Assembly (NCBI RefSeq): GCF_011044495.1
Contig: NZ_CP049143.1
Span: forward strand, 2,108,001-2,172,000
DNA length: 64,000 nt
Source: Roseimicrobium sp. ORNL1
GTDB lineage: Bacteria; Verrucomicrobiota; Verrucomicrobiia; Verrucomicrobiales; Verrucomicrobiaceae
Direction of reading: 5' to 3'
The notes beneath the pieces are model-generated. The model did not search any database and had not been told where the DNA came from. It saw nothing but the letters and a program-made list of their open reading frames with translations. Positions 7,614 through 33,493 of the stretch are shown piece after piece (within the stretch, counting starts at the first letter, position 1; every line of letters starts with the position of its first letter). Both the position numbers and the translations under genes were made by a program.

Positions 7614-7678
7614 ACGGCTTGTCTCTTATCCCGTGGTCCAAGAAATTAGCGCACCTCACTATCCATTCCAAAATCAAA

Positions 7679-7716: not shown

Positions 7717-7741
7717 CACGTGGCGCCGCAAGCATGCGTCG

Positions 7742-8161
7742 CTACTCTCCCACCACGCTCACCACCACATTCCGCGTATGCGGCGCACGGCGGTGCTCGA
7801 AGAGATAGATCCCCTGCCACGTTCCCAAGGTCATGCGTCCCTGCATCACCGGGATGACTTCACTGGTGCGGGTGAGCACCATGCGGATGTGGCTCGGCAT
7901 GTCATCCGGCCCTTCGCAGGTGTGCACGAACCACGGTGTGTTCTCCGGTACCAGGCGCTCAAAGAACTCATGCAGATCTGTCCTCGCGGAAGGGTCCGCA
8001 TTTTCATAGATCACCAGGCTGCAACTCGTGTGCTGCACGAAGACCGTGGCTGTGCCCACACGAATGCCGGAGGCACGCACGATACGCTCCACCTGTGAGG
8101 TGATGTCATACGTGCCCTTTCCCCGGGTAGTAATGCTAAACTGATCCGCGTGAGCAGGCAT
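7742..8161 (-). CDS. yjbQ: YjbQ family protein (UPF0047)
   Basis: The product is 139 residues, the normal family length. Conserved blocks are present: TVFVQHTSCSLVIYENADPS, the GPDDMPSHIRM segment, and GRMTLGTWQGIYLFEHR near the C-terminus. YjbQ proteins are small trimeric cytosolic proteins with a weak thiamine-phosphate synthase activity reported for some members; the real role is unsettled. It is last in a possible minus-strand run moaC-mogA-tfoX-yjbQ (58 bp after the tfoX-like gene), followed by the repeat and the IS element. Confidence 0.9.
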   Translation of the reverse strand: MPAHADQFSITTRGKGTYDITSQVERIVRASGIRVGTATVFVQHTSCSLVIYENADPSARTDLHEFFERLVPENTPWFVHTCEGPDDMPSHIRMVLTRTSEVIPVMQGRMTLGTWQGIYLFEHRRAPHTRNVVVSVVGE

Positions 8162-8219
8162 GGTGGGAGTGATGATGGTTGGACGGATGTCTATCGTGCC
8201 ACCGTCGACTCAGTGTACC

Positions 8220-8639
8220 TCATTTCTTCCGCGCCTTCTTCGCCGCGGTTTTCTTTTTGGCCTTTGGCCCCGGCTTCGCTTCCGGTTCCTGCTTCGGCTT
8301 CTTCTTTGCTTTCGCCTTCGGTTTCGCCTTGCGCAGGGACGCCTCTACTCCGAGCAGCGCCCAGGGTTTCATCTTCATTGGGCTGGAGAGGGCGCTCTCC
8401 GGCGGCTCCCAATAGCTCATCACGGTCTCGTTGCCGTCCTTGTCCACGAAGCGGAAGGGCTCGCAGCTCGCGTCGATGAATATCTGGCGATTCTCCTCGT
8501 CGGTTTTGAGAAAGAGCCTGCCGTACGCCTCCAGGGCAAACATGATGCCATTCTTGTAGAAGCCCGTGCCGCCGAACATCCGGCGCGGCGTCACTTCTCC
8601 CACGGAGGCCAGCAAGTCGAGCATGTCATCCACAGTCAT
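8220..8639 (-). CDS. TfoX N-terminal domain protein with lysine-rich histone-like tail
   Basis: The product is 139 residues. Residues 1 to about 95 match the TfoX_N domain (PF04993): VTPRRMFGGTGFYKNGIMFA, GRLFLKTDEENR, MSYWEPPESAL. The final 39 residues (from about 101) contain 17 Lys and 2 Arg among Ala and Pro, in blocks such as KAKPKAKAKKKPK and KAKKKTAAKKARKK. This resembles histone H1 or the AlgP/HU-type tails that bind DNA without sequence preference. Classical TfoX/Sxy proteins regulate competence but also carry a TfoX_C domain, absent here. It lies 30 bp downstream of mogA on the same strand. Confidence 0.85.
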   Translation of the reverse strand: MTVDDMLDLLASVGEVTPRRMFGGTGFYKNGIMFALEAYGRLFLKTDEENRQIFIDASCEPFRFVDKDGNETVMSYWEPPESALSSPMKMKPWALLGVEASLRKAKPKAKAKKKPKQEPEAKPGPKAKKKTAAKKARKK

Positions 8640-8669
8640 GGCGTCACTCCTTCTCTTCTTCGTTCGACA

Positions 8670-9188
8670 TTAGCAACTCGTCGGTTCCTTGCGTGCCACC
8701 TTCACGGTATGTGGAACGGCGCCGACCACAAAGCTGAGACACTCCACCGCACCCGACGGCTTGCCAGGAAGCGCGAGCACGAGCGAGTTCCTCACAATCG
8801 CGCCCATGCAGCGACTCAGGATGGCATTCGGCGTGATCTCCAGCGACTTCATCCGCATGAGCTCGCCAAAGCCGGGAATCTCCACGCGCATGATGCCACG
8901 AATAGCCTCTGGCGTGACATCGCGGTCAGCGATGCCGGTGCCGCCCGTGGTGAGGATGAGCCCACAACCCTGCGCCGCAAAAGAGAGCACTGCCTGTTGG
9001 ATAGCCACCACGTCATCCGGCACGAGCGCTTCCGCTTCCACGCTCCAGCCGTATTCGTTGCTGGCCTTCTTCAACGCAGGCCCTCCATGATCCTGATACA
9101 CACCAGCGCTGGCGCGGTCCGAGACGGTGATGATGCCAACCGTAATCGTGGCAGGCGTAGGAGCGGGTGCAGGAGCAGGTGTGGACAT
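8670..9188 (-). CDS. mogA: Molybdopterin adenylyltransferase (MogA/MoaB family)
   Basis: The product is 172 residues. After an Ala/Pro-rich leader (APAPAPTPAT) comes the MoCF-binding fold: ITVGIITVSDRASAGVYQDH, LILTTGGTGIADRDVTPEA, and LVLALPGKPSGAVECLSFV. TTGGTG and the following Asp form the molybdopterin/ATP site. The family adenylylates molybdopterin before molybdenum insertion in molybdenum cofactor synthesis. The gene begins 9 bp after the moaC stop, so the two are almost certainly one transcript. MoaB-type and MogA-type proteins are hard to separate by eye. Confidence 0.92.
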   Translation of the reverse strand: MSTPAPAPAPTPATITVGIITVSDRASAGVYQDHGGPALKKASNEYGWSVEAEALVPDDVVAIQQAVLSFAAQGCGLILTTGGTGIADRDVTPEAIRGIMRVEIPGFGELMRMKSLEITPNAILSRCMGAIVRNSLVLALPGKPSGAVECLSFVVGAVPHTVKVARKEPTSC

Positions 9189-18444: not shown

Positions 18445-19389
18445 ATGGTCGCCATGCAATCCCCAGATGCATCCGAGGACCCCGTCCTGAACGAGGGTGC
18501 CGTGCTGACGGTTTGCTGGACGGAGGAACTACTGCGCAACCTGGACTGGAAGCGTCTCTTGGAGGTCGTCCGCGCCCTATCCGTCTACTCCGGCTACGAG
18601 CCCGGCAGCACCGCGATTGAGCCCACGGGAGCGGCCCAGTTTTTCATCGAAGACCCCAAGGCGCGACAGAAGGGAAGAGCCCTGGTACGGCTCGCCCCGT
18701 GGAGTCGTTGGATGGCCACGGTCGACTGCGTGACCGGCTTTGTGGAGACCCTCGCTGCAGAGGGGCAGATTCCCGGCATCTACATCGCCCCGGCCGGTTC
18801 TACCCCCGGTGCCCAGACCGCGGCCCGGAGCCGGGGGATTCAGCTTCTGGATGCCCGCCTGCTCGCCGCCCGGCTGAATGAGCTGCCGCAGGAGTACAGC
18901 GAGTACTTCCATGACCGGACCGTCTCCGGCGTGGCCACGGTACCTACCTGTCCGATCTGCTTCCGGCCCATGACCAGCGCCGAGGAGCCTGACCCCGGAA
19001 AGGTGAATGTGGATGACCTGCCGGACCTGCGTTACGCCACCCAGGACATCGTGGGCGAACCCATCCACGCCCGCCGCATTGAGGTGCTACAGAGCGGGGA
19101 GGTGCATTTCCTGCGAGAAGTGCGCGCCCAGGACGTGGTGGTGAATGGCGTGGTGAAGGGCGACTTCGTCTGTGACCGCTCCCTCCTCCTGAATCCCGGT
19201 GGCGTGCTCTACGGAAGCGTCGCTGCCCGTTCTGTTCTGGTCCGCCCCGGCGGCGCCCTCAACGGCGAAACCCGCATCCTGCAGGGTCCCCTTGAGCCCA
19301 TCGCCAAACTCGCCCGCCCTTGGGCCTGGCGCTGCGAGCACACCCCCAGCCAGCCCGGCTGTGAGAAGGTGGTGTTCCACCCGCATTGA
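18445..19389 (+). CDS. Degenerate Mrr-like domain fused to a Cys-pair segment and a bactofilin domain
   Basis: The product is 314 residues. Residues about 25-145 resemble the Mrr/restriction-endonuclease-like fold (LDWKRLLEVVRALSVYSGYE ... IPGIYIAPAGSTPGAQ, AARSRGIQLLDARLLAARL). Where active Mrr proteins have QxK, this one reads LVRLAPWSRW, so the catalytic Lys is missing. A short CPICFRPM segment follows near residue 169. Residues about 205-285 form a polymer-forming bactofilin-type beta solenoid (ARRIEVLQSGEVHFLREV, GDFVCDRSLLLNPGG, GSVAARSVLVRPGGALNGE). It is probably a cytoskeletal or membrane-associated scaffold. It is divergent from metX with 130 bp between. Confidence 0.7.
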   Translation: MVAMQSPDASEDPVLNEGAVLTVCWTEELLRNLDWKRLLEVVRALSVYSGYEPGSTAIEPTGAAQFFIEDPKARQKGRALVRLAPWSRWMATVDCVTGFVETLAAEGQIPGIYIAPAGSTPGAQTAARSRGIQLLDARLLAARLNELPQEYSEYFHDRTVSGVATVPTCPICFRPMTSAEEPDPGKVNVDDLPDLRYATQDIVGEPIHARRIEVLQSGEVHFLREVRAQDVVVNGVVKGDFVCDRSLLLNPGGVLYGSVAARSVLVRPGGALNGETRILQGPLEPIAKLARPWAWRCEHTPSQPGCEKVVFHPH

Positions 19390-19413: not shown

Positions 19414-20511
19414 TTACTTGCTGAACATCGTCTCCCTCACCACGCCCTTCAGCAACCGGCCCATGGTGGAGAAGTAGCTGTTGGCGATATCTGAGGTCAG
19501 GAAGGCGAGGTAGACGTCGTTGGAGGGCAGGGGACTGTTCGAGGCAAAGTACACGGGACGGTCGGTGCCGCGGTACTTGGACTTGTGGAAGGACAAGCCC
19601 TTGAAGTTGTAGATCTCGTTGCCGTAGCGCTCGCTGATGGCGAAGAACATCCTCGTGGCCCAGTCATCATTGTAGATGCCTTGCTCCAGCTTCACGAAGG
19701 GGCACATCAGCAGATTCAGCACTTCGATGCCTTCGGGTTTGAAGACATCCATGGCGGTCATGTGGATTGCGGTGGCGAGGCGTCCGTAGCGTTGTTCGTC
19801 GCAGCGCACCGTGTTTGCCGAGTAGCCGAAGGGTTTCCCGTTCCGATACATCGGATCGTAGAACACATAGCCCACGGCCACGCCATCTTTGTCGAAGGCC
19901 ACGAACTTGCGCACGCCGTGTTCAGGCTCATACACCGGCCGGCGCGCATAGACCCAGATCTCGCGATCGTTCACCTTCTTGCCGCCAATCCAGCGGGCGG
20001 AGAGATCGTTGAGCTGATCCTGGGACACGGTGGAGATGTCCACCTCGCGGATGGTGATGCCCTCGCGCTTTGCCTCGTTGCGCGCGCGCTTGATCATGTC
20101 CAGTTCCTTCCAGTTGCCCTTGGTGTTGTAGGACTGGACGTCCAGCACCGGCTCATAGCCCACGGTGTTTGCCTTGAAGCCAATCTGGCGCAGGATGCGC
20201 GCGCACTCCTCGGAGATCACCGCGAAGACCGCGGATGGATTCTCCTTCATGAAGGCCTCGATCAAGGCCCGCATGTTCCCCGGTGCGCAAACCGGATCCG
20301 AAAGAACAATGCGCTTCAGTTTCCGGGCAAAAACCGGATGCGTCACGCTGGTGAAGGAAATGTATCCCAGGTCATGGACGAAGTATTCCATGCCCTGCTG
20401 CAGGGTCGCGTAAGCCAGCGCTTCCGTGCCGTGATTGAGAAAATGCGGAGCAAGCATCCGCCATTTCTCTTCACGGTTGAAGTTCTTTGCATCGGCACCC
20501 AGAATCATCAT
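19414..20511 (-). CDS. DUF2156 protein (MprF C-terminal, aminoacyl-lipid synthase-like acyltransferase)
   Basis: The product is 365 residues from ATG 20511 (a GTG at 20529 is also open). It matches the LPG_synthase_C/DUF2156 domain, a double GNAT fold: FLNHGTEALAYATLQQGMEY near the N-terminus, FAVISEECARILRQIGFKAN and EPVLDVQSYNTKGNWKELDM in the middle, and FVAFDKDGVAVGYVFYDPMY later. In MprF this domain moves an amino acid from aminoacyl-tRNA to phosphatidylglycerol. Here there is no membrane flippase, so it is soluble and the substrate is open. It lies 57 bp downstream of the alpha/beta hydrolase on the same strand. Confidence 0.8.
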   Translation of the reverse strand: MMILGADAKNFNREEKWRMLAPHFLNHGTEALAYATLQQGMEYFVHDLGYISFTSVTHPVFARKLKRIVLSDPVCAPGNMRALIEAFMKENPSAVFAVISEECARILRQIGFKANTVGYEPVLDVQSYNTKGNWKELDMIKRARNEAKREGITIREVDISTVSQDQLNDLSARWIGGKKVNDREIWVYARRPVYEPEHGVRKFVAFDKDGVAVGYVFYDPMYRNGKPFGYSANTVRCDEQRYGRLATAIHMTAMDVFKPEGIEVLNLLMCPFVKLEQGIYNDDWATRMFFAISERYGNEIYNFKGLSFHKSKYRGTDRPVYFASNSPLPSNDVYLAFLTSDIANSYFSTMGRLLKGVVRETMFSK

Positions 20512-20586
20512 GACCTCGACAGAGAACACGGGTGGTGACGGTGCGCAACAACCGTCTGAGAATCGCGCACTAAAACGCAGGATGCA

Positions 20587-21483
20587 TCAAGCAAGATGCT
20601 TGCGCAGCCAGGACGCAGTGAGTTCAAACACACGCTCACGGTTGCGATCCAGATGACCCACATGCCCGTTGCCCGCCACAATCTCAAGGCCCTTCACGCA
20701 CTTCAGGGAGTCGTGCAGGCGATGTGCGGTGCTGATGGGATCAAGTTCATCATCCTCACCCCAAATCACAAGGGTGGGAACCTTGATCTGATCCACGCGT
20801 TTGATGGTATTGACGATAAAAGCCTGGGCGGCGCCGGGCAGTGGGAAGGCCGCGAAGGCACGAAGCTTGCCCGGATCCTTTTGCAGACGCTTGTTGATCT
20901 CAGGGTCGGAAGCCAGCTTCAGGCCATCCAACATGGAGATCAGGGAAATGCGAAGGTGCTTGCCGGTGAAAAGATGCTTGAGGCCGCCAAGGGCAGACAG
21001 GCTGCGCATGAGCACCGAGACACCGAAGGGCAGCGTGTCCATGACGGTGGCATCCAGCGTCACGAGTGCCTTGAGGCGGGTCTCCACCACAGCAGCTTCG
21101 AGAATGGCAGTACCACCGGAGGACAGGCCGAAGGCAGCCACGCGGTGGTTGTCTAGATCGACGCGTTGCTCGGTGAAATCGATGGCGGCCTTGATGTCGG
21201 AGACCCACTCCTTCATCTGGATGCAGTACTCCGGTCCTTCGCTTTCACCATGACCGTGCATGTCCAGCATCAGCGTGGCGATACCCCGGTGTGCGAGGTA
21301 CTCGGCCAGCTCGATGTAGTTTTCCTTAAATTCACCGGCGCCATGGCTGACGATGAGCACCGGGTAGGGCGCTTCTTCGTCTTCCACCGGAAGCTGTAGT
21401 AGACCTTGAATACGTTGCCCGAGTGAGAGGAAGGAAACCTTCTCCCTGCGGGAGTTCATCGTGGTGGTTGGCGCTGCGGTCAT
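20587..21483 (-). CDS. Alpha/beta hydrolase
   Basis: The product is 298 residues with no signal peptide, so it is probably cytoplasmic. It has the classic order: VLIVSHGAGEFKENY (oxyanion region), TLMLDMHGHGESEG, nucleophile elbow AFGLSSGGTAI, then VIWGEDDELDPIS with the acid and VAGNGHVGHLD with the His. It resembles esterase/acylhydrolase types acting on small lipophilic esters. It follows the Phc-like operon after a 150-bp AT-rich gap, so it may have its own promoter. A role in turning over a fatty-acid methyl-ester signal is conceivable but is only inference from position. Confidence 0.85.
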   Translation of the reverse strand: MTAAPTTTMNSRREKVSFLSLGQRIQGLLQLPVEDEEAPYPVLIVSHGAGEFKENYIELAEYLAHRGIATLMLDMHGHGESEGPEYCIQMKEWVSDIKAAIDFTEQRVDLDNHRVAAFGLSSGGTAILEAAVVETRLKALVTLDATVMDTLPFGVSVLMRSLSALGGLKHLFTGKHLRISLISMLDGLKLASDPEINKRLQKDPGKLRAFAAFPLPGAAQAFIVNTIKRVDQIKVPTLVIWGEDDELDPISTAHRLHDSLKCVKGLEIVAGNGHVGHLDRNRERVFELTASWLRKHLA

Positions 21484-21633: not shown

Positions 21634-22878
21634 CTAATGAATCGGCAACAGCCTCTCCCACAGCGAGTCATTCATCAGCACCTTGCTTACAAAGTCACGA
21701 GTGGTGAAGGCCTTTGCCCCTTCTGCGGCGGACACTGGTACGGTCACTTCGAGGTTCAGTCCGCCTCTCTCACCGGAGGTGATGCTGCCGCCCAGATGAT
21801 GCGCGATGAGGTGCGCGCCAAGCAAGGCAACTGCTGAGGGATGGAGCCCCTCGGGGCTGTCATAGAAGGGGTCAAACACCGACCGCAGCGAGTCGATGGA
21901 GAGGCCGGGACCGTTGTCCTGGTACTGCACTGTCACCGCGTCAGCACCGCCTTGAGTCGAGGCAGGCTTGACGGAGAGGGTGGCTTTGGCACCCGGGGTG
22001 TCGGCGGTCAGCGCAGCGTCCAACAGCAGGTCGACCAGCTTTCGGAAGGTACCGGCGTCGACATTCACGGCAGGAGCCGAGGCGTCTATCTGGGTGGTGA
22101 GTTCCACGCCCTTCGCTGCTGCTGCGTCTTTCTTGGCCGCTGCAGCCTCTTCCACAATCGATGCCGGATTGCTGGATGCCCCAGCCGCCGCTCCTACACC
22201 TTGCAGATCGCCCAGCAGAGTGCCGACCTGATTCAGGCGCACGCTGATCTGGTCGTGGAAGTCACGCCAGAAGAGAGGATCGCGGAGGCGGTCCTGAGCG
22301 GTATCCACAGGACGCAGGCGTCCGGGCGTCAGTTCCAGGAAGGACTGCACCGCGTGCAGAGGATTATTCAGATCGCGGCTCACGCCGCTGGCGAGCACAC
22401 CGAGGCTGATCACCCGGTCACTGATGAGCACGTTCTGCAGCACGGAGAGCTTCTCACGCAGCAGTTCGTCACGCTCCTGCTGGAGAATGTAGAACTCCAT
22501 GGCGCGGTGCAGGGTGTTGCGCATATCGTCCACCTGCAGGGGCTTGGAGATGTAGCGGAAGATGCTGCCAAGGTTCACCGCATCCACGGTCACGCCGAAG
22601 TCAGCATAGGCGGTGATGAGCATGCGCACGAGGCGGGGCCGCAACTGGCGGGCGCGCTCCAGAAGGTGCACTCCCTTCTCGCCCGGCATGCGCTGGTCCG
22701 TGATGAGCACGCCCAGTTCGTCACCCTTTTCCTCGATGATCCTCAGGCCATCCGCAGCGTTGTTCGCGGTGAGGATCTTGAATTCTCGGCCAAAGGTTTT
22801 TTCGAAGTACTTCAAGGCCATCTCCTCGTCATCGACGTAGAGGACGGTGTAGCGCTTCATATCGTAGAAGTTGTGCAT
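21634..22878 (-). CDS. PhcQ-like protein: receiver domain plus histidine-less kinase module
   Basis: The product is 414 residues. Residues about 8-125 are a receiver domain with VLYVDDEE, phospho-acceptor D61 in LITDQRMP, and a Lys in YISKPL. A coiled linker leads to a DHp-like helix GVLASGVSRDLNNPLHAV, in which the usual His of the GVAHEINNPL-type motif is Arg168. The ATPase part keeps DNGPG but the N-box Asn is replaced (LLLDAAL) and the G2 region is weak. It therefore looks like a pseudokinase output of the receiver. Domain order and position after the fused PhcSR-like kinase match PhcQ of the Ralstonia phcBSRQ operon. The gap to the upstream gene is 35 bp. Confidence 0.75.
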   Translation of the reverse strand: MHNFYDMKRYTVLYVDDEEMALKYFEKTFGREFKILTANNAADGLRIIEEKGDELGVLITDQRMPGEKGVHLLERARQLRPRLVRMLITAYADFGVTVDAVNLGSIFRYISKPLQVDDMRNTLHRAMEFYILQQERDELLREKLSVLQNVLISDRVISLGVLASGVSRDLNNPLHAVQSFLELTPGRLRPVDTAQDRLRDPLFWRDFHDQISVRLNQVGTLLGDLQGVGAAAGASSNPASIVEEAAAAKKDAAAAKGVELTTQIDASAPAVNVDAGTFRKLVDLLLDAALTADTPGAKATLSVKPASTQGGADAVTVQYQDNGPGLSIDSLRSVFDPFYDSPEGLHPSAVALLGAHLIAHHLGGSITSGERGGLNLEVTVPVSAAEGAKAFTTRDFVSKVLMNDSLWERLLPIH

Positions 22879-22913
22879 GGCGTCGTGGGTTGCTCGGGCG
22901 GTTTTTCGGGGGG

Positions 22914-25592
22914 TTATTCAAACGCTCCCCTCGCGTCAGGGGAAGGGAATTCCAATTCAAATTCGGTAAAAAGACCGGGTTGGCTGCGGACATCAATGCG
23001 CCCGCCGTGCTCGGAAACGATGCGATGGCAGATGGAAAGGCCCAGTCCCATGCCGGAGCCGACGTCCTTGGTCGTGAAGAAGGGGTCAAAGACCTTGCTC
23101 CGAATCTCCTCGGAGATCCCGGGGCCATTGTCTCGCAGGGTTACCATGACCTTGCTGCCGGCCGGTGCCGCGCTGATGGAAATGAGAGGGGATTCGCCGT
23201 CGGCATACTTCTTCGTTCGCATGGCGTCAATGGCGTTCTGGACCAAATTAACCAGCACCTGCACAATCTGATTGCTGTCACCCCGGATTTCCAATCCTTC
23301 CGGCACGTTGATCTCCGCGGAAATGCCGTCCTTCCACTCGTGGGAGAAGAAGCGCAGCACCGTTTCCGCCACCGGCCTGAACACGAACACCTGGGTGGTC
23401 TCGTGAGTCATGCGGGTGAATCCACGCAGGTCCGAGATGATGCGGGCCACGCGCTTCACGCCATCATGCACGTCCTTGAGGGTATCGGCGAAGTCCGCAC
23501 GCTCCTCTTCGGGCAGCATCTCCGTCACCTGGCCCAGCAGGTGCAAACCCTGGCTGGCATAGTTGAGGGGATTGTTGATCTCATGGATCAGGCCGGCGCT
23601 CATGCGGCCCAGAGCGGCGAGCTTTTCATTCCGCACCATGAGCACCTCGGTTTCCTTCACTTGCTCCAGAGCGGCTTCGAGCTGCTGCTTCTGCACGGAG
23701 AGCTCCCTCTGGTAGAGGTGGGAGTCCACCAGGTTCTTCAGGCGCACGGAGACTTCCGTCAGGGAAAATGGCTTGCCGAGGAAGTCGCTCGCCCCGGCCT
23801 GGAGGCAGTCCATCTTGGTCTTCTCATCCGCGCGTGCAGTGAGCAGCACGATGGGAATGGAGCGCGTGGAAACACGCTCGCGCAGTTCGCGGCAGACCTG
23901 CAGACCATCCTTCTCCGGCATCATCATGTCTGAGAGGATGATGTCGGGCAGGAACTGGGCCGCCTTGTCCACGGCTTGCAGACCATCCACGGCTTCCAGC
24001 ACTTCGAAGTTGGCGGAGAGCTGACCCTTGAGGAAGCGAAGCATGTCCGGCTCATCGTCCGCGATGAGCAGCTTCGGCTTGCGGCTGCGACCAACGCCGG
24101 TCTCGATGGGGCGCAGGCTGGCCTGCAGGGACGTGATGGCGGGGAACAGTTCCGCGCGGCGGTACAGGCTGCTGATCCATTCCTGGGTGGAACCGTTGCT
24201 TTCTGCTTCCACGTCCTTTGTCTCCACGGCGTGTTCGGGTTCCTCGACTTCCCCCTCAGGAGCCTCCACGTAGGGCAGTCTTACGGACATCGTCGTGCCC
24301 CGGCCCACTTCGCTGGTGGCTTTCACCGTGCCACCCTGGGCTTCCGCGAGTTCTTTCACCAGCGCCAGACCGATGCCCATGCCCTGGAACTTGCGCTGGG
24401 AAGAGGTGTCTCCCTGCCAGAAGCGGTCAAAGATGTGCGGCAGCTGGGCGGGATCGATGCCCATGCCGGTGTCCCGGATGTCGAATTCCAACCAGTTTCC
24501 ATCCCGGGTTGCGTTGAACTCCACCTTGCCACCGGCAGCGGTGAACTTCATGGCGTTGAAGAGTAGGTTGAGGCTGATGCGTTCCAGCTTTTCCGAGTCG
24601 AGCTTCGCGGCGCCCAGGCTGGGATCCACGTGTGTCTCCAGCCGGATGCGCTTGTCCTTGGCCATGGCGCGCACTGCCGTGCCGATGCCCTCTACGAATT
24701 CCTTAACTTCCACGCGGCGTTCCTTCACCTCCACGCGTCCGGACTCCAGGCGAACCAGATCGAGCAGGTCATTGATGAGCTTGAGCAGGCGCATCGAGTT
24801 GCCGTGCATCGTTTCCAGCAGCTCCTTTTGCTCGGCATCAGACTTCGGTTTGGGGTTGAGCATCGCCTCCAGCGGGGCGATGAGCAGGGTAAGCGGCGTG
24901 CGGAGTTCGTGGCTGATGTTTGCAAAGAACCGGCTCTTCACCTCATCCATTTCCCGGAGCTTCTGGTTGGTCCGCTCGAGCTCTTCGCGATTTTGATCCA
25001 ACCGGGAGCGCAGCTCAAACTCCGAGCGCCGCACCCCGTTGTACTGCCAGGTGCCCGCCACGATGATCACACCGGTCAGGATCAGGAAGTACACGTTGTT
25101 ATAGAAGGTGCCCCAGTCCGTGATGCGTCCGTGGGCCAAGCCTGCTGTCCCGTAGGCAATGAGCGTGAGTAACAAGATGATCACGCTGTCCAGCAGCGGC
25201 CATCGCATGACGATGGCGGAGCCCAGCATCACCAGGTTGAGCGCCGCATAGTAGGGGGATACCGCGCCGTCCTTGGAATAGATCATCAGGCACATACAGA
25301 TCACCGGGACAAACATCGCCATGATGCCCACCGCCCGGTAAAACCTGGTTTCCGGTCTTAGGTGCAGGATCAGCCACAGGATAACGAGCACTCCGGAGGT
25401 GGCGAAGCGCATGGGCAGCCACTGCCACATGGTTTCCTGCCCGTACACCAGGATGTCCACGCTGGCGCCCAGCGGCATGAAGGTGCCAGCCAGAATGCAA
25501 CCCAGCTTGTAGTTGCGAATCCGGATCGGACGCTCGTATGCGTCGAACGAACTCTGCAAGCCGCCTCGCGGCTCTATGGATACATTAGCCAT
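22914..25592 (-). CDS. PhcS-PhcR-like fused hybrid kinase (6 TM, HK, receiver, HK)
   Basis: The product is 892 residues. Residues about 28-185 hold six predicted membrane helices. Next come a coiled coil and HisKA (H228 in FFANISHELRTPLTLL) with an HATPase (DTGMGID, GMGIGLALVKEL), a receiver (D555 in LSDMMMPEKDG, Lys in FLGKPF), another coiled coil, and a second HisKA (H670 in AGLIHEINNPLNYA) with HATPase (DNGPGIS, GMGLGLSICHRI). Ralstonia makes these as two proteins, PhcS (sensor kinase) and PhcR (receiver-kinase); here they form one chain. It overlaps the methyltransferase stop by 8 bp, so translation is probably coupled. Confidence 0.85.
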   Translation of the reverse strand: MANVSIEPRGGLQSSFDAYERPIRIRNYKLGCILAGTFMPLGASVDILVYGQETMWQWLPMRFATSGVLVILWLILHLRPETRFYRAVGIMAMFVPVICMCLMIYSKDGAVSPYYAALNLVMLGSAIVMRWPLLDSVIILLLTLIAYGTAGLAHGRITDWGTFYNNVYFLILTGVIIVAGTWQYNGVRRSEFELRSRLDQNREELERTNQKLREMDEVKSRFFANISHELRTPLTLLIAPLEAMLNPKPKSDAEQKELLETMHGNSMRLLKLINDLLDLVRLESGRVEVKERRVEVKEFVEGIGTAVRAMAKDKRIRLETHVDPSLGAAKLDSEKLERISLNLLFNAMKFTAAGGKVEFNATRDGNWLEFDIRDTGMGIDPAQLPHIFDRFWQGDTSSQRKFQGMGIGLALVKELAEAQGGTVKATSEVGRGTTMSVRLPYVEAPEGEVEEPEHAVETKDVEAESNGSTQEWISSLYRRAELFPAITSLQASLRPIETGVGRSRKPKLLIADDEPDMLRFLKGQLSANFEVLEAVDGLQAVDKAAQFLPDIILSDMMMPEKDGLQVCRELRERVSTRSIPIVLLTARADEKTKMDCLQAGASDFLGKPFSLTEVSVRLKNLVDSHLYQRELSVQKQQLEAALEQVKETEVLMVRNEKLAALGRMSAGLIHEINNPLNYASQGLHLLGQVTEMLPEEERADFADTLKDVHDGVKRVARIISDLRGFTRMTHETTQVFVFRPVAETVLRFFSHEWKDGISAEINVPEGLEIRGDSNQIVQVLVNLVQNAIDAMRTKKYADGESPLISISAAPAGSKVMVTLRDNGPGISEEIRSKVFDPFFTTKDVGSGMGLGLSICHRIVSEHGGRIDVRSQPGLFTEFELEFPSPDARGAFE

Positions 25593-27039
25593 TCTCGGGC
25601 TTGCGTACTTCGAGGAAAATGTTCACTCCCGTCGTATCCGAGCTTACCGAGCAGCTTCCAGGCGGCGCACTTTCCGGCGCCAGGCGCAGGAACTGCTGTT
25701 TGTTCCGATATACCAGATGCCATTCCACCACATATTCCATCCACAGGCGGGACGGATTGGAGGTATCCACGTTGGTGGCCACGAGCAGGCCCCCAGGCGC
25801 GAGCAGATCGTAGAACACCTCCAGGAGCCGGCGGCAGATGCGGTCGGAAAGGTAGTCAAACAACCCGGCGCAGTAGACAAAGTCGTAACCTCCCACCTCA
25901 AATCCGGCACCCTTCTTCGAGGATTCCTTCAGGATCTGGTGCACGGAGCGTTTCACAAACTTCAGTTCCGTGCGGCGACGGTGCCGGGTGCGCAGGTCCT
26001 CGAGGATGCGCGTGGTGTTGGTGATGGTCTCGTCGTTGAAGTCGAGCAGGGAGATGTCCGCATTATCACTCAGTCCATCGGTGGCGAGGAACTGCTGCAC
26101 CTCCTTCGCCGGACCGCAACCCAGGTTGAACACCCTGGCCATCTTGCCCTTCTGTGCTGCACGCGAAGTTTCTTCGTGCAGGCGTTCGGTCAGGTAGGTG
26201 ATGCGGTTTCGGTGGGCCACTACCGGCGGGATGTCGAGGAACAGCCGGTTCAGAATCTTGGCAAACATGGAGCTCCCTTCGTAGGGATCACGCAGCATCA
26301 TGCTTACCATTTCGTAGTCGCCTGCGTAGCCCAGCGGCTTCTGGAAAATGCGGTACACAAACGGGGAGCACAGCACCAGGGGATGAATCTGTCTCTTGAT
26401 GTAACTGCTGTGCACCGGCTGCAGTTCCGGGGTGATGCTCACCGCAGTCGTTTCAAACCGTTCCAAAAGCGGAGTCACTGCGGGAAGGATGGGCACTTCC
26501 AACTGCCGGATGGTATCCCGCTCTGCGGTCAGGCGATCTCCTGCAGGAAGTGAACGCACGCCCAGTTCCACCTGTTCCATCCACCGACGCAGATCCGAGA
26601 GCAGCGTGTGAATGTCCGCCACCACCAGTTTGAAGTCGGGAGCGACCGAGTAGGTCTTCTCCGTTTCACGCAGGAACTCGGCAAACTCAGCCAGCAACCG
26701 GTCCTTGTTTTGCGCCGGTGCCAGGATGTCGACATCGATCCATCCTTCATCCGCGAGCGAAGCCTCGCAGATGAGCATGATGCCCGTGTTCACCAGGTTC
26801 GCGATGACCGCCCGCCCCGAGTACACCACGCGCTCATTCATGAGAATGCGGAAGTCGTTCAAGACTTCCGAAAGCTGCACAATGCTGTACGGATTGTAGA
26901 CTTCGAAAACCGCCAGGTAGCGCGTCAGTCGATGCAGCGTGCCGCGAACCTCCGCGCCTTGGCTGTTCCGGCAGATGATGAGACTGAGCCGTTCTCCGCC
27001 AGAGGTGTTTATGGGCAGGGGATTTTCAGAATTCTCCAT
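25585..27039 (-). CDS. PhcB-like SAM-dependent methyltransferase with N-terminal PilZ-like domain
   Basis: The product is 484 residues. Residues about 15-110 are beta-rich and PilZ-like (GTLHRLTRYLAVFEVYNP, FRILMNERVVYSGRAVIANL). Then comes a helical segment, the family motif QKPLGYAGDYEMVSMM (about 233-248), and a class I SAM fold with motif I VFNLGCGPAKEV (303-314), LLDFND and YDFVYCAGLFDYLSD. The motif and layout recall proteins annotated as PhcB, which methylates 3-hydroxy fatty acids to the methyl-ester quorum signal in Ralstonia. It is first in the minus-strand unit with the fused kinase and the PhcQ-like gene. The substrate is inferred, not shown. Confidence 0.75.
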   Translation of the reverse strand: MENSENPLPINTSGGERLSLIICRNSQGAEVRGTLHRLTRYLAVFEVYNPYSIVQLSEVLNDFRILMNERVVYSGRAVIANLVNTGIMLICEASLADEGWIDVDILAPAQNKDRLLAEFAEFLRETEKTYSVAPDFKLVVADIHTLLSDLRRWMEQVELGVRSLPAGDRLTAERDTIRQLEVPILPAVTPLLERFETTAVSITPELQPVHSSYIKRQIHPLVLCSPFVYRIFQKPLGYAGDYEMVSMMLRDPYEGSSMFAKILNRLFLDIPPVVAHRNRITYLTERLHEETSRAAQKGKMARVFNLGCGPAKEVQQFLATDGLSDNADISLLDFNDETITNTTRILEDLRTRHRRRTELKFVKRSVHQILKESSKKGAGFEVGGYDFVYCAGLFDYLSDRICRRLLEVFYDLLAPGGLLVATNVDTSNPSRLWMEYVVEWHLVYRNKQQFLRLAPESAPPGSCSVSSDTTGVNIFLEVRKPENG

Positions 27040-27264: not shown

Positions 27265-28527
27265 TTATGCGTCGGCGTTTGTGTGCCGCGAGTTGAGAAA
27301 TTGGTTCATGGCCATTTCGAGCTGCTTGATGCCAAATGGTTTTACGAGACAGGCATCCGCTCCTGCGATCATGCATTTGTCTCGCTCTGCGGGTACCGCG
27401 AGTCCAGACATGGCGATGATGGGAACCTGTGAGAGCGCTGGATTGCTGTGGGTCCGTATCTTCTGGAGCGCTTCCATGCCGTCCATGATTGGCATGAGCA
27501 TGTCCATGATCACCAGATCCGGCGTTTCCTGACTGGCCAGTTCGAGCGCCTCCTTGCCGTTGGTTGCTGCCATGACACGGAAGCCCACACTCTCCAGATA
27601 GTCGTGAGTGATGTTCCGCAGCACATCTTCGTCATCCACCAGCAGAATCAGCGGAGACTCGGAATGGTGCGTATCTATCTCGCCACCCGCAGGCGAAGAC
27701 GTTTCTTCGGTATCAGCGATGACGCTTTCCAAAACGGCAGGTTCATGTGAGCTGGTTGTCGAAGGCGAGCATTTCAAGGGAAGGCGGACTTTTACGAGCA
27801 GTCCGCCGCCCGGCAGTTCGCACGCGTCGAGCTCACCGCCGTCGTGCAGGGCCAGCAGGGAGTTGATGAGACTGATGCCAATTCCCTTGAGCTTGCGCAG
27901 CCGCTCCATCACAGGTGGAGAGGAGACTGCTTTTTCCACGGTTGTTGACTGCAATTCTGATGGGCCTCCCCAGGCGCGGATGAGCAGCACTTGGCCTGGG
28001 AGATCGGTACTCACATCCAGGTTCACTTTCCCCTTTGCCGGCACCGTTGCCACCACGCAGCCCAGCGCCTCGGTCATGATTTGCAGGATGCGCTTTCCGT
28101 CCCCTTCACCGGTGATGTTTTGAGGAGAGGTCGAGTGCCGCAACGCCAGGGACCTGGCCTCCGCTGGACCCCGCAATTGCCTGGCCGCCTGCGCTGAAAT
28201 TTCATCAAGCTCAAACGAGGCATTTTGCAGCGCGAGGGTTCCTGCGTGGATTTTCTCCACATCCAAGAATCCATTGATCAACGTCAGCAACCGTTGGGCA
28301 TTGTCCGCAATGGTGCCAAGTGCTTCGCTTTGGCGCAGACCGATGTCCCCATAAATGCCATCCTGAATGCCCTCCACCAAGGCGAGGATATTGGAGAGGG
28401 GATTGCGCATCTCATGGCCGGCACGGGACAAAAACATCCCCCGCTCTCCGTTGTTGGCCACTTGGGGGGCTGGTGAGGCTGAACTGACGGGGGAATCCTT
28501 GGAAGGCGAGGCCAGAGTCGTAGTCAT
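27265..28527 (-). CDS. Hybrid histidine kinase with degenerate ATPase and C-terminal receiver
   Basis: The product is 420 residues and soluble. HisKA begins near residue 30 with H38 in LSRAGHEMRNPLSNILAL. The following ATPase-like region is poor: the N box reads LQIMTEALGCVVATV and the G1 box reads IRAWGGPSELQ in place of DxGxG, so ATP use is doubtful. A normal receiver follows (LLVDDED, D342 in VIMDMLMPIMDG, Lys in CLVKPFG). It may serve as a His-Asp carrier rather than as a kinase. It lies upstream of the Phc-like operon on the same strand (225 bp) and is divergent from the receiver gene at 28814. Confidence 0.8.
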   Translation of the reverse strand: MTTTLASPSKDSPVSSASPAPQVANNGERGMFLSRAGHEMRNPLSNILALVEGIQDGIYGDIGLRQSEALGTIADNAQRLLTLINGFLDVEKIHAGTLALQNASFELDEISAQAARQLRGPAEARSLALRHSTSPQNITGEGDGKRILQIMTEALGCVVATVPAKGKVNLDVSTDLPGQVLLIRAWGGPSELQSTTVEKAVSSPPVMERLRKLKGIGISLINSLLALHDGGELDACELPGGGLLVKVRLPLKCSPSTTSSHEPAVLESVIADTEETSSPAGGEIDTHHSESPLILLVDDEDVLRNITHDYLESVGFRVMAATNGKEALELASQETPDLVIMDMLMPIMDGMEALQKIRTHSNPALSQVPIIAMSGLAVPAERDKCMIAGADACLVKPFGIKQLEMAMNQFLNSRHTNADA

Positions 28528-28813: not shown

Positions 28814-29281
28814 GTGAATACCCCCTCCTTGGAATCATCGCAAATCAAGACCATCCTGCTCGTGGAAGATAACGATGGCTACAGACAAATCGTGGCAGCA
28901 TCGCTGGCCAAGGCGCTGCCCGAGTGCCGGATTGTGGAGGCGGACAGCGTTGCGACTGCCCGCGCAGTTGTGCCTGTGGAATCCCTAAATGTGGCTCTTT
29001 TGGATATGACGCTGCCTGACGGCATGGCCACGGACATCATGGAGGGGTGGCAGCCAGCTATTGGAAAGGGGCTTAAGGTGGTGGTTTTCAGCAGCTACGA
29101 CGCTGAAGAAGTGGCGCCAGCCCTGCAACGGTTCGGGGTGCATGAGTATGTAAACAAGGAGCGCGGCATGAGAGCTCTGGTTCAGGCGGTTCAGACTGCG
29201 GTTCAGAGCGTTCCAGAGGGAAAAGACGTGCAAATTGGCCGATCCAGCCCCACCTTAGCGGCGGACAGCCTGAGCCATTGA
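28814..29281 (+). CDS. Single-domain response regulator
   Basis: The product is 155 residues from a GTG start. It is a receiver domain only: acidic pair in ILLVEDNDGYR, phospho-acceptor Asp in VALLDMTLPDG, Ser in VVFSSYD, Lys in YVNKERG. The C-terminal 30 residues are disordered (VQIGRSSPTLAADSL) with no output domain, as in CheY- or Spo0F-like carriers. Its stop lies 42 bp before the ATG of the giant hybrid kinase, so the two are very likely co-transcribed and partners. A 286-bp divergent region separates it from the minus-strand kinase. Confidence 0.88.
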   Translation: MNTPSLESSQIKTILLVEDNDGYRQIVAASLAKALPECRIVEADSVATARAVVPVESLNVALLDMTLPDGMATDIMEGWQPAIGKGLKVVVFSSYDAEEVAPALQRFGVHEYVNKERGMRALVQAVQTAVQSVPEGKDVQIGRSSPTLAADSLSH

Positions 29282-29323
29282 TTGGCATATTGCTGCGTCC
29301 CCCCCCCTATTCATTGCCCTACC

Positions 29324-32300
29324 ATGGAAGGTCTGATCACTCGACGTGCTGGAAGCAGCCTCTCGGCTGAGCCGGCGCGCCCTGCCATGGGCTGGGTCCA
29401 GGGGGTGTTCGACTGTCTCGGCGATGCTATTTTCATTCACGACGCCTCCACCGGCGCCATCTTGCACGCCAACAGCCGTGCGTGCGAACTCTATGGCTAC
29501 AGCCCTGGTGAACTGTGCCGCTGCTCAGTAGCAGACATCAGCTCCAACGTATCGCCTTACAGTCAGGAGGATGCCCTGCGCTGGATGCAGCGCACCTTCC
29601 ACGATGGGATGCAACTCTTCGAATGGCAGGCGAGAGCCCGCTCCGGTTCCCTGTTCTGGGTGGAGGTGCACATGAGCCAGGCGGTGCTGGACGGCCATGT
29701 CCGGTTGGTGGTTTCCGTGCGTGACATTTCCCGGCGCAAGCTCGCAGAGCATGCGCTGCGGCAGAGTGAGGAGCGCTTCCGCCTGCTCTTGGGCAGCAGC
29801 CGTGATCCGGTCTACTGTCTGAACCTGCAGAGCCTCACCTACGACTACCTGAGCCCTGCGGTGGAGCAGATGTTGGGCCTCTCCATGAATGAGCTCATGG
29901 AGGGCGGTCTGCGTCTCTTTGTGTCCCGCATCCATCCGGATGATATGGATGCCCACTGCGCCCGGCTGGACCGCCTGGTGCTGGAGGCCTCTGACGACCG
30001 CTACAAGCCCGTGGTGGAGTATCGCTTCCTGAACCGCAGCATGGGTTTCCGCTGGATGAGCGACAGCTGCTCCGTGGTACGCGACCCCTCCGGCAGGCCC
30101 ACCGCCATCATTGGGAATATTCGTGACGTCACCCTGCGTCGTGAGCATGAGGAAGCGCTACAGAAGGCGCACGCGGCACTGCTCTTCCACCTGGAGAGCA
30201 GCTCCCTGGCACTGGTGGAGACGGATGCGAACTTCCGCGTGAAGAACTGGTCTCCGCAGGCCGAGCGCATCTTTGGCTGGAGAGCAGAAGAAGTGCGCGG
30301 ACGCCTTCTTGCTGAGCTGGATTTCATCCATCCGGAAGATGAGGCCCTGGTGGCTTCGAACATCCGGCGGCTGCAGGAACGCAGTGAATCCCGCAATAGC
30401 TGCGTCAGCCGCAACCTGCGCAAGGACGGGCGCGTGCGCATCTGCGAGTGGCACAACTCAGCCATCCTGGATGAGAAGGGGGAGTTGCTGTCCATCCTGT
30501 CGCTGGCCACGGACATCACGAATGAACGGCGGATTGAAGATGCCCTGCGGGCCATGGCCCAGGGGGTGGCCGGATCGAGTGACGAAGCGTTCTTCCAGTT
30601 CCTGTGCCTGAATCTCGCCCGCATTCTGGAAATGAAGTTTGCCTGCGTGGCCATGCTGGTGCCAGAGCGGGATCGGATGGCGCGCACCCTGGGCTTTGCC
30701 GGCGACGGCGTGATCCTGGACAACATGACCTACTCGCTCGTCGGCACTCCCTGCCACAAGGCGTTCGACGGTGAGGTGTGTTACTTCTCCTCTGGCGTGC
30801 AGGAGCAGTTCCCGGATGACCTGTACTTCAAGGATCAGGGCGTGGTGAGCTACATCGGCGTGCCGTTGCACAGCGGGGACGGTCGTACCATCGGCATTCT
30901 CTCGGCCTTCAGCGATCGGCCGATGGATCAGATCGAGCAGTTCCAGACCATCTTCCAGATCTTTGCCGCACGCGCGGCGGCCGCTCTCGAGCGCCACCTC
31001 GCTGAGAGTGCGCTGCGCATCAGTGAAGAGCGCTATGCCCTGGCTGCCAGTGCCTCCGCCGCGGGGGTGTGGGACTGGGATCTGGTCTCCGGTGTGGTGT
31101 ATTATTCTCCACGATTCCGTGAGATGACTGGATACAGCCAGGATGAGCTGCCCAACACGGTCTATGCCTGGGAGCGCCGCATCCATCCGGACGACCTGCC
31201 CATTGTGCGTGAGTCCATGGAGCGGCACCTGCATTTCAAGGAGCCGTACCGGGTGGACTACCGCTTCCTCACGAAGAAGGACGGCTACCACTGGTTCTCC
31301 GCCCGTGGCCAGGCCATCTGGAATGCGGATGGTGACCCCTGCCGCATGGCGGGTTCCCACCTGGACATCCATGACTTGAAGATGTCCGAGGAGCGAGTGC
31401 GGCGCCTCAACCGGTTGTATGCCGTGGCCAGCGGCATCAATGACGTGATGGTCCGCGTGCGCGAGCCGCAGAGGGTGTTTGCGGCGACCGCCCAGATTGC
31501 CGTGGATACGGGCATGCTGAAAATGGCCTGGGTGGCGCTTTATGATTCGGCGTCCGGAAGGGTTGCTGCCATCGCCAGATCCGGTCAGGACCAGGGCTTT
31601 GTGAAGCTCGTGTCCGAGGCGCCCGGACTGGTGGAGGAGGGGCTCGGCGTCTGCGGGCAGACACTGCGCACCAGCCAGACGTCCGTCTACAACGACGTCG
31701 AAGCGGACGAGTCATACGTCTTCCGGGAGGAAGCCATCAAGCGTGGCTACCGTTCTTGTGCCGCATTCCCCATCAAGCCCGCGGGCAAGTGTGTGGGATG
31801 CCTGGTGCTCTATGCGGATGAGCCACACTTCTTCAAGCACGAGGAACTCCGCGTGCTGAACGTGCTCGCGGAGAACCTCTCCTTTGCCATCGAGTCCTCT
31901 GAGAAGGAAATGGCGCGCCTGCGTGCGGTGGATGCCCTCGCAGAGAATGAGCGCATGCTCTCCACCCTGCTGAGCAACCTTCCAGGCGCCGCCTTCCGCT
32001 GCCGTCAGGACCACGCTCGTACCCTGGAATTCATCAGCGAGGGTTGTACAGAGCTCAGCGGCTATGAGCCTGCGGATCTGATTGGCAACAGCAAGGTCAG
32101 CTTTGCCAGGCTGATGCATCCGGATGACCTGCCCACGGTGCAGGGCGCCATCGCGGAGGCGCTCGCGGCAGGCCGCACCTATGAAGCCACCTACCGCATC
32201 CATGCCAAGGATGGCAAGGAACGCTGGATCTGGGAGCGCGGGCAGGGCATCTCCTCGGAGAATGGCAGAGTGGATTTCCTGGAGGGCTTCATCACAGACG

Positions 32301-33493
32301 TCACGGAGAAGCGCCAGCTTGAGTCGCAGTTCCTGCGTGCACAGCGCATGGAGAGCATCGGCACCCTGGCCGGCGGTATTGCCCACGACCTGAACAACAT
32401 CCTCGCGCCCATCATGATGGCGCTGAGCATCCTCAAGATGAAGCTGGGCGCTCCACGCGACAAGGAGATGCTCAAGACGCTCGAGTCGAACACCAACCGC
32501 GGTGCGGACATGGTGCAGCAGATCCTGAGCTTTGCGCGCGGGGTGGAGGGCAAGAGCATCCACCTGCGCCCGAAGAACATCGTCAAGGAAATCGAGCGCA
32601 TCGTGAAGGAGACCTTCCCGAAGAACATTGAGTTCAAGGTGGCGTATGCCGATGATCTCTGGGAGCTGAATGGCGACCCCACGCAGCTCCACCAGATGCT
32701 GCTGAACCTTTGCGTGAACGCACGCGACGCGATGCCCAACGGCGGCATGCTCAGCATCTCCCTGAGCAACACCGTCATTGATGAACGCTACGTCCGGCTC
32801 CATCCCGAAGCGAAACCCGGATCGTGCGTGGTCTTTGCGGTGAAGGACACCGGCATGGGAATCCCCCTGGACATCCGCGACCGCATTTTCGAGCCCTTCT
32901 TCACGACCAAGGAATTTGGCAAGGGCACCGGTCTGGGCCTGTCCACGACCATTGGTATCGTGAAGTCGCACCATGGGGTCATTGAGGTCGACAGCCAGCC
33001 GGGACAGGGGACAGTGTTCCGCATTTTGCTTCCGGCGAGGCCGGGAGGGCCGGAAACCAAGGAGCCTGAGAAGCAGCGGGGGAACCGGAAGGGTCACGGC
33101 GAACTGGTCCTCGTGGTGGATGACGAAAAGCCCATCCGGGACACAGGCAGCCACATCCTCGAAACGTTCGGCTACCGCGTCATGACGGCTGCCAATGGGG
33201 CGGAGGCGGTGGAAATGTTCCGGAACAGCAAGGAACGCCCCTCCATCGTTTTTACGGACATGATGATGCCCATCATGGACGGGCCAGCCATGATCCGTGA
33301 GTTGCGCAGCCTGGATTCCAGCGTCCGTTTTGTGGGAGCCAGCGGATTGAACAATGAGTTGGCGGCTGAAGCTAGAAGTTTGGGGGTGAGGCACTTCCTG
33401 CACAAACCCTACACGACGGAGGACCTCCTGATGGCCCTCGCCGACACCATCGAAGGGGTAAGCGGACCGGTGGTCGCTTCCGTTCATCATTAA
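29324..33493 (+). CDS. Giant soluble hybrid histidine kinase (PAS/GAF repeats, HisKA, HATPase, receiver)
   Basis: The product is 1389 residues from ATG 29324; a TTG at 29282 directly after the previous stop would add 14. The order is PAS-PAS-PAS-GAF-PAS-GAF-PAS-HisKA-HATPase-REC. PAS/PAC ends are seen as SVRDISRRKLAEHAL, NIRDVTLRREHEEAL, TDITNERRIEDAL, SHLDIHDLKMSEE and ITDVTEKRQLESQ. The phospho-His is in AGGIAHDLNNILAP (codon 32384). The ATPase keeps DTGMGIP and GTGLGLSTTIGI. The receiver Asp is in VFTDMMMPIMDG (codon 33257). There is no membrane helix, so it should sense cytoplasmic cues such as redox, light or ligands; no cofactor residues are assigned. Confidence 0.92.
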   Translation: MEGLITRRAGSSLSAEPARPAMGWVQGVFDCLGDAIFIHDASTGAILHANSRACELYGYSPGELCRCSVADISSNVSPYSQEDALRWMQRTFHDGMQLFEWQARARSGSLFWVEVHMSQAVLDGHVRLVVSVRDISRRKLAEHALRQSEERFRLLLGSSRDPVYCLNLQSLTYDYLSPAVEQMLGLSMNELMEGGLRLFVSRIHPDDMDAHCARLDRLVLEASDDRYKPVVEYRFLNRSMGFRWMSDSCSVVRDPSGRPTAIIGNIRDVTLRREHEEALQKAHAALLFHLESSSLALVETDANFRVKNWSPQAERIFGWRAEEVRGRLLAELDFIHPEDEALVASNIRRLQERSESRNSCVSRNLRKDGRVRICEWHNSAILDEKGELLSILSLATDITNERRIEDALRAMAQGVAGSSDEAFFQFLCLNLARILEMKFACVAMLVPERDRMARTLGFAGDGVILDNMTYSLVGTPCHKAFDGEVCYFSSGVQEQFPDDLYFKDQGVVSYIGVPLHSGDGRTIGILSAFSDRPMDQIEQFQTIFQIFAARAAAALERHLAESALRISEERYALAASASAAGVWDWDLVSGVVYYSPRFREMTGYSQDELPNTVYAWERRIHPDDLPIVRESMERHLHFKEPYRVDYRFLTKKDGYHWFSARGQAIWNADGDPCRMAGSHLDIHDLKMSEERVRRLNRLYAVASGINDVMVRVREPQRVFAATAQIAVDTGMLKMAWVALYDSASGRVAAIARSGQDQGFVKLVSEAPGLVEEGLGVCGQTLRTSQTSVYNDVEADESYVFREEAIKRGYRSCAAFPIKPAGKCVGCLVLYADEPHFFKHEELRVLNVLAENLSFAIESSEKEMARLRAVDALAENERMLSTLLSNLPGAAFRCRQDHARTLEFISEGCTELSGYEPADLIGNSKVSFARLMHPDDLPTVQGAIAEALAAGRTYEATYRIHAKDGKERWIWERGQGISSENGRVDFLEGFITDVTEKRQLESQFLRAQRMESIGTLAGGIAHDLNNILAPIMMALSILKMKLGAPRDKEMLKTLESNTNRGADMVQQILSFARGVEGKSIHLRPKNIVKEIERIVKETFPKNIEFKVAYADDLWELNGDPTQLHQMLLNLCVNARDAMPNGGMLSISLSNTVIDERYVRLHPEAKPGSCVVFAVKDTGMGIPLDIRDRIFEPFFTTKEFGKGTGLGLSTTIGIVKSHHGVIEVDSQPGQGTVFRILLPARPGGPETKEPEKQRGNRKGHGELVLVVDDEKPIRDTGSHILETFGYRVMTAANGAEAVEMFRNSKERPSIVFTDMMMPIMDGPAMIRELRSLDSSVRFVGASGLNNELAAEARSLGVRHFLHKPYTTEDLLMALADTIEGVSGPVVASVHH

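Follow-up and report, generated by a model that had tools for sequence, protein, structure and literature searches.

Does the Phc quorum-sensing machinery of Ralstonia and Cupriavidus also occur outside Proteobacteria? The question is raised by three adjoining minus-strand genes of Roseimicrobium sp. ORNL1 (Verrucomicrobiota), located in a 64,000-nucleotide stretch (positions 2,108,001 to 2,172,000 of contig NZ_CP049143.1; henceforth the window) that is part of a 7.96-Mb single-contig genome. The first gene (25585..27039, open reading frame (ORF) of 484 aa) encodes an S-adenosylmethionine (SAM) methyltransferase of the PhcB type, the predicted signal synthase; the second (22914..25592, 892-aa ORF) a hybrid sensor kinase composed of a PhcS-type sensor, a cassette of a first kinase (HK1) with a receiver, and a PhcS-type kinase; and the third (21634..22878, 414-aa ORF) a PhcQ-type protein with a receiver, a linker and a kinase-like domain in which His is changed to Arg. 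The ORFs of the first two genes overlap by 8 bp (25585-25592) and 35 bp (22879-22913) separate the second from the third, exactly as given in a preliminary description of the locus, in which the set was likened to phcB-phcS-phcR-phcQ of Ralstonia. Alignment and reciprocal searches bear out PhcB, PhcS and PhcQ, but not PhcR, which is missing from the operon, and the HK1-receiver cassette is an addition; the operon is best matched as phcB-S(+cassette)-Q. That homologues of Phc exist outside the phylum of Cupriavidus can be regarded as virtually certain, and that the operon encodes a Phc-type phosphorelay making and sensing an acyl methyl ester as probable.

The reference systems were taken from the phylum of Cupriavidus. 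In a tblastn search of plasmids yielding 131 records, only one, from Paraburkholderia graminis, covers 80% of the query; it carries a full-length relative of the methyltransferase followed by a kinase and two receiver genes, and the 39 other matches listed are partial, with 24-27% identity. A genome scan with an alignment led by the Paraburkholderia protein gave at least 576 confirmed matches. The best 80 of these, ranked by likeness to the Paraburkholderia sequence, all carry names of betaproteobacterial groups, many of them Cupriavidus, and we take these groups to belong to Betaproteobacteria. In Cupriavidus necator (L100) the genes follow in the order methyltransferase, membrane kinase, receiver-kinase and receiver protein, and Cupriavidus JMP134 has been reported to possess a complete Phc system, 56-75% identical to that of R. 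solanacearum (PMC2842291). Another locus from the family of C. necator, L155, carries PhcB R22, PhcS L161 and H230, and PhcQ R154, residues published for R. solanacearum GMI1000/OE1-1 (PMC6989110, PMC11960443), and was used as the Ralstonia-like reference, its genus being our own deduction. Phc gene clusters have been reported from Betaproteobacteria in a survey confined to Proteobacteria (PMC10653808); among the titles listed for PhcB and Phc, none names a member outside Proteobacteria, and the same is true of the titles listed for Verrucomicrobia together with quorum sensing and methyl ester.

Judged by alignment, the window methyltransferase is a full-length homologue of Ralstonia-type PhcB. 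It is 39.7% identical to PhcB of L155 over 456 aa (E 1.7e-113), the N-terminal domain included. The motif singled out earlier, KPLGYAGDYEMV, is present at residues 234-245 (26305..26340, minus strand), and its K234, P235, G237, A239, G240 and D241 are invariant across 31 aligned rows. R22 of PhcB, changed in the published R22C mutation (PMC6989110, PMC11960443), aligns with window R32, and 24 of the 31 rows have Arg there. An AlphaFold2 (AF2) model with a mean predicted local distance difference test (pLDDT) score of 86.7 shows, besides a Rossmann-type methyltransferase, a helical part and, at the N-terminus, a beta domain of six strands. The N-terminal domain (residues 19-95, strands E19-24 to E88-95; 26755..26985, minus strand), common to PhcB, has no Pfam match and its modelled fold may be PilZ-like. 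Pfam assigns to the protein three generic methyltransferase models, all slightly below their cut-offs and spanning residues 283-437 at most. Foldseek returns as its top match a Bordetella protein titled only possible exported protein, and its best 50 matches are mixed, mostly methyltransferases. Kinship with an unrelated family had been named at the outset as one finding that would overturn the comparison with Ralstonia; in alignment and trees the enzyme groups with PhcB over its full length. A role as a protein methyltransferase was considered and set aside: the family profile has one match among PDB sequences, a protein lysine methyltransferase, at E 1e-4 and over the SAM-binding part only. 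No close second copy was found in the genome itself, where the sole other match is short (E 0.003). It is also worth mentioning that the family commonly has a distant methyltransferase paralogue, short (~320 aa) and devoid of the N-terminal domain, such as that at 8300-9253 of L050; a search of the window genome at E 0.01 did not find this type.

The hybrid kinase consists of a membrane sensor domain (residues 1-195; 25008..25592), HK1 (residues 219-441; 24270..24938; Pfam HisKA/HATPase, phospho-acceptor H228 in ISHELRTP), an internal receiver (residues 509-615; 23748..24068; Pfam Response_reg) and a PhcS-type second kinase, HK2 (residues 652-885; 22938..23639; H670 in LIHEINNP), all on the minus strand; Pfam accordingly recognizes HisKA and HATPase twice and one receiver. 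The sensor, for which the Pfam scan gave no name, is all-helical in the AF2 model (mean pLDDT 91.7), in which a helix of eight residues accompanies the six long ones. It is homologous to the PhcS sensor: hhalign gives 100% and E 4.6e-40 over 192 columns, and single reversed, shuffled and unrelated seven-transmembrane controls are null (E 0.34, 0.8 and 0.14). Both share the motif (D/E)GA.SPYY..LNL, at an overall identity of only 21-24% between the window sensor and those of eight Phc loci. Foldseek finds no match to the sensor at E <= 0.001, the best being 8wcn (ImcA; E 0.089, template modelling score 0.64 by query length). PhcS homologues without the N-terminal sensory region have been flagged as possible false positives (PMC7567580), and the window protein has this region. 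In HK2, H670 aligns with H230 of PhcS (LLHEINNP), the published phospho-acceptor. Searched against the window genome, PhcS finds HK2 with 160.3 bits and the next place with 91.6; in the opposite direction, the hybrid kinase finds PhcS best in the Ralstonia-like genome (154.6 bits), where the window membrane region gives a separate match to PhcS of 42.5 bits. On these sensor and second-kinase results, the preferred reading of the hybrid kinase is a PhcS that carries an extra HK1-receiver cassette between sensor and kinase. The PhcS proteins of L155 and C. necator, of 442-443 aa, do not contain HK1. Among relatives, L064 from the window's own class has a short PhcS-like kinase (7358-8719) with one kinase and without the cassette, and in L057 (10589-13306) the hybrid kinase is split into a membrane-kinase and a receiver-kinase gene, with no PhcQ-type gene after them. 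Descent of the hybrid kinase from a fusion of PhcS with PhcR is disfavoured, since PhcR has a better match in the third gene (E 2e-30) than in the hybrid kinase (E 1e-22), and since the receiver tree, in which the internal receiver was set as the outgroup and has a long branch, shows no direct grouping of it with PhcR.

In the 414-aa protein Pfam recognizes a receiver, a HATPase and a sub-threshold HisKA. Its designation as a receiver-pseudokinase, already proposed, holds, because the phospho-acceptor His is replaced by Arg (GVSRDLNNP). PhcQ finds this gene in the window genome with 129.2 bits, the next place having 32.5, and the reverse search in two Phc genomes finds PhcQ first (129.2 and 127.0 bits), PhcR second (95.8 and 100.9) and nothing further above about 55 bits; by this measure PhcQ and the third gene are each other's best match. 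Its profile aligns with PhcQ over columns 12-190, that is, receiver and linker (E 6e-53), and the equivalent of PhcQ R154 is kept as R155. In the receiver tree, built from cuts of about 180 residues and with PhcR of L163 left out, the window gene falls in a supported group of 35 rows together with PhcQ (96/96), and that branch separates them from PhcR, from the receiver of the hybrid kinase itself and from six other receivers. Comparison with the window protein suggests that the C-terminal part of PhcQ may be an eroded kinase-like domain. Kinases nearer to proteins other than PhcS, PhcR and PhcQ would have spoken against the original comparison; what the reciprocal searches return is PhcS for the sensor and second kinase and PhcQ for the third gene.

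The association of these genes is not confined to one genome. The methyltransferase is matched at E <= 1e-3 in 53 of 96 relatives (own genome included), ten of them weakly and mostly via the C-terminal part, and in the 30 short loci compared, which are the best matches among these relatives, the methyltransferase-kinase pair is adjacent in every case (one being the window itself). Of 44 longer loci from the window's phylum, with adjacency counted by a strict rule, 37 have the hybrid kinase (or the short form of it) immediately after the methyltransferase, and in 34 the next gene is of the PhcQ type. L044 is a 38th locus with the pair, missed by the strict rule, and the other six (L047-L050, L068 and L069) all contain distant relatives of the enzyme. 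The adjacency in the 30 short and 37 longer loci argues that the association is not due to chance. Carriage is patchy in the phylum, with 22 of 387 sampled genomes matching at 1e-10, and the methyltransferase, when present, is usually part of a complete trio. Nine of 223 genomes match in a related order, and in the phylum of C. necator nine of 398 match at 1e-15, seven of them full-length; among the matches listed, no genome is common to the sets of the two phyla.

In a 63-row methyltransferase tree the PhcB rows from the phylum of Cupriavidus form one clade (100/100), whose sister clade (98/98) comprises seven rows from operons linked to a large synthase gene, described below, and L176, which has no such gene. 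A leaner tree, without 14 of the 63 rows (L050, L072, L073, L180, L176, L048, L049, L031, L044, L075, L102, L141, L157 and L158), places the seven synthase-linked rows alone as sister to PhcB (100/98). For the window's phylum, monophyly of its 27 non-fused rows is rejected by an approximately unbiased (AU) test, chosen after the first tree had been seen (p 0.004). Given a root anywhere but on the PhcB branch itself, this sister relationship and the AU rejection lead to the reading that PhcB is nested among the sampled sequences of the window's phylum; the root was placed by hand on distant or receiver-fused relatives and two phyla were sampled, so the direction of transfer is not read from the tree. 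The same pattern holds for PhcQ, whose sister (97/98) is the first receiver of the synthase-linked operons L060 and L063.

The synthase genes are found in nine of the 44 longer loci, belonging to seven genera and including operons of the related order. In each, a Pfam-typed, one-module type I polyketide or fatty-acid synthase (PKS/FAS) gene lies directly upstream of the methyltransferase on the same strand, at an offset of -28 to 78 bp, and encodes 2,082-2,603 aa (L058 770-8581, L059 2049-8327, L060 10220-16468, L061 2267-8539, L062 1379-7714, L063 10160-16504, L173 3874-10197, L174 3886-10149 and L175 10898-17290). By Pfam, eight have the composition KS-AT-DH-ER-KR-ACP. The ninth, from L058, is an AMP-ligase-ACP-KS-AT-methyltransferase-KR-ACP protein without DH or ER, with an AMP-ligase/ACP/thioesterase protein also nearby, and the methyltransferase of this locus is placed apart in the tree, with L057. 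A poorly tuned motif scan puts His (QANHAAAN) in the KR of L058 at the position of Tyr, which we take to be the usual catalytic residue; a 3-hydroxy chain made by L058 is therefore less likely. FadL-family outer-membrane proteins occur near the operon in 16 of the 44 loci according to a hidden Markov model (HMM) built from seven Pfam-checked proteins that are themselves among the 16; examples are L036 7278-8585, L045 7525-8766, L035 7348-8730 and L051 2998-4326. The gene lies directly upstream (13-145 bp, same strand) in eight loci, past the PhcQ-type gene in five (three on the opposite strand) and beyond the synthase in three (two on the opposite strand). The same HMM, which may miss distant FadL proteins, found none in 94 Phc-type loci of the phylum of Cupriavidus. 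FadL has been tied to long-chain acyl-homoserine lactone signals in rhizobia (PMC9938287). A candidate output of the operon is found in L036, where a response regulator of the LuxR type lies a short way upstream of FadL.

The support for an acyl signal includes this gene context in relatives, synthase and FadL. We infer the fatty-acid methyl-ester chemistry and quorum sensing, that is, the reaction, the signal, its export and sensing, the order of phosphotransfer, density dependence and output, from protein homology and the neighbours in relatives. The PhcB-type methyltransferase would esterify the carboxyl of an acyl chain with SAM, the substrate most likely being a 3-hydroxy fatty acid or a related chain. 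The hydrophobic methyl ester would exit the cell, and the hybrid kinase would detect it through its membrane domain, which would drive an internal relay from H228 of HK1 through the internal receiver to H670 of HK2. The latter would phosphorylate the PhcQ-type receiver-pseudokinase, which, lacking a DNA-binding domain like PhcQ, would act by protein-protein contact. A way for such a protein to act without binding DNA is shown by PhcQ, for which binding and stabilisation of PhcA have been reported (PMC13320629).

Several observations weigh against this Phc-type reading. The margin of PhcS in the Ralstonia-like genome is small, the next match, via HK1, scoring 146.5 bits. The HK1-receiver part is a common module, and for this reason the hybrid kinase finds a different hybrid kinase first in C. 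necator (236.7 bits, residues 208-644), where PhcS (138.7 bits) is best only for HK2. The similarity of the third gene to PhcQ ends near profile column 190, and so covers receiver and linker only. No separate PhcR gene was found in the operon, the next same-strand gene after the PhcQ-type gene being a hydrolase by the ORF list and Pfam; no whole-genome search for PhcR was made. Taken as unrooted, the receiver tree has the hybrid kinase's receiver on the PhcR side of a supported branch, which leaves the PhcS-PhcR fusion in play. The FadL figure is a raw count in which many of the loci are near relatives and seven of the 16 built the HMM, and neither a PKS nor a FadL gene was found beside the operon of the window or that of its sister genome L031. 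A more radical doubt, that ordinary two-component genes merely adjoin an unrelated methyltransferase and resemble Phc at the level of domains, could appeal to the abundance of kinases and receivers (97 receiver matches across the genome). It is already contradicted by the reciprocal searches, in which PhcQ, and in the window's own genome PhcS, lead by wide margins, by the homology of a sensor that has no Pfam name, and by the synteny in 37 of 44 loci, and we give it almost no credence.

Two other explanations concern what the relay does. One, compatible with a Phc-type relay, is that lineage-specific synthases give rise to another signal, be it some other acyl or polyketide ester or a chain that is free or hydroxylated, the Ralstonia compound itself not being made. 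The different synthase types in the linked loci and the low identity of the window sensor to those of the Phc loci favour it, but in the loci examined from the window's own family the operon has no synthase beside it, and in this they resemble Ralstonia and Cupriavidus. In those genera the chain is supplied by ordinary fatty-acid synthesis. We consider a different signal nearly, but not quite, an even prospect. The other explanation makes the methyltransferase the output of the relay and no signal synthase: an environmental cue, detected by the hybrid kinase, would switch methylation of a membrane lipid or protein. It draws on the generic methyltransferase families matched, on the lysine methyltransferase match in the PDB and on relatives with an N-terminal receiver fused to the methyltransferase (L046 8492-10549, L067 2089-4146, L070 8670-10682, L048 8498-10507 and L049 7600-9471, the last with a partial receiver match). 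A sigma-54 response regulator adjoins the fusion in L048, and the neighbour in L049 is an MgsA-type ATPase by Pfam. Of the seven tree rows labelled REC-MT, Pfam recognizes the receiver in L046, L070, L048 and L049 and none in L047, L068 and L069. Under the Phc-type reading as well, such fusions tie the enzyme family to phosphorelay control, and they fit control of the enzyme by a receiver; PhcQ has been reported to affect signal production (PMC6989110). However, the sensor that travels with the enzyme is homologous to one reported to sense the product of PhcB in Ralstonia, and the fused forms are on their own supported branch (99/98), though not placed outside a clade of window and PhcB sequences. 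We regard methylation as the output as unlikely, and keep to the Phc-type relay with an acyl methyl ester as its signal.

Downstream of the operon, on the minus strand, are an alpha/beta hydrolase (20587..21483; Pfam Hydrolase_4), possibly a signal esterase, whose top NCBIfam match is a lactonase model far below its cut-off, and a protein with an LPG_synthase_C domain (19414..20529; Pfam), paired with it; their association with the operon is weak. The hydrolase also adjoins the operon in L031, and divergently in L038, and the pair recurs in both. Upstream, a soluble HisKA-receiver protein (27265..28527, minus strand; Pfam) may be an extra input to the operon; among the longer loci compared, a close match (69%) occurs at the same place in L031 only. 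The genes at 28814-33493, which lie divergently on the plus strand and encode a small receiver protein and, directly behind it, a kinase-receiver protein of 1403 aa, are probably independent signalling genes. At 18445-19389 a single chain has Pfam matches to Mrr_cat and bactofilin, an odd pairing.

In its wider meaning, the occurrence of enzyme, sensor and relay together in another phylum provides a concrete quorum-sensing candidate for that phylum, and a trio outside Proteobacteria bears on the origin of the Ralstonia system. Tentatively, and with more doubt than confidence, Phc of Ralstonia and Cupriavidus could be seen as one offshoot of an older, more varied family of acyl-ester signalling systems in the window's phylum, in which the full-length hybrid kinase would be the common form, PhcS a variant lacking the HK1-receiver cassette, and some operons would have their own iterative PKS/FAS for the chain and FadL for outer-membrane passage. 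If so, a set of polyketide or fatty-acyl methyl-ester autoinducers has yet to be described. The synthase-linked operons make the signal chemistry more predictable and testable.

Among known systems, the RpfF/RpfC diffusible signal factor (DSF) system is similar in its fatty-acid signal and hybrid sensor kinase. Its synthase is not known to be related to the PhcB-type enzyme. RpfC is named in PMC6989110. LvrA-LvrB of Leptospira, compared at the kinase modules, resembles the operon in the relay of a hybrid kinase plus a receiver-kinase, and the LvrA model is the top NCBIfam match of the hybrid kinase, far under its cut-off; the main text of the LvrA-LvrB paper reports an anti-sigma-factor partner and does not contain the words methyltransferase or quorum (PMC13269768). 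The closest likeness is to Phc of Ralstonia and Cupriavidus, made up of PhcB, PhcS, PhcR, PhcQ and the target regulator PhcA, of the common LysR type: the window operon has an enzyme with the same N-terminal domain and motif, a PhcS sensor and kinase and a PhcQ-type receiver, in the same gene order and strand. It differs from Phc in the HK1-receiver cassette within the PhcS homologue (a cassette also missing in L064), in the absence of PhcR from the operon and in the kinase-like domain kept by the third protein, and some relatives in the phylum differ further by added PKS or FadL genes. The kind of system is thus already known, and what is new is the cassette-bearing PhcS, the operon without PhcR and the synthase- and FadL-linked relatives.

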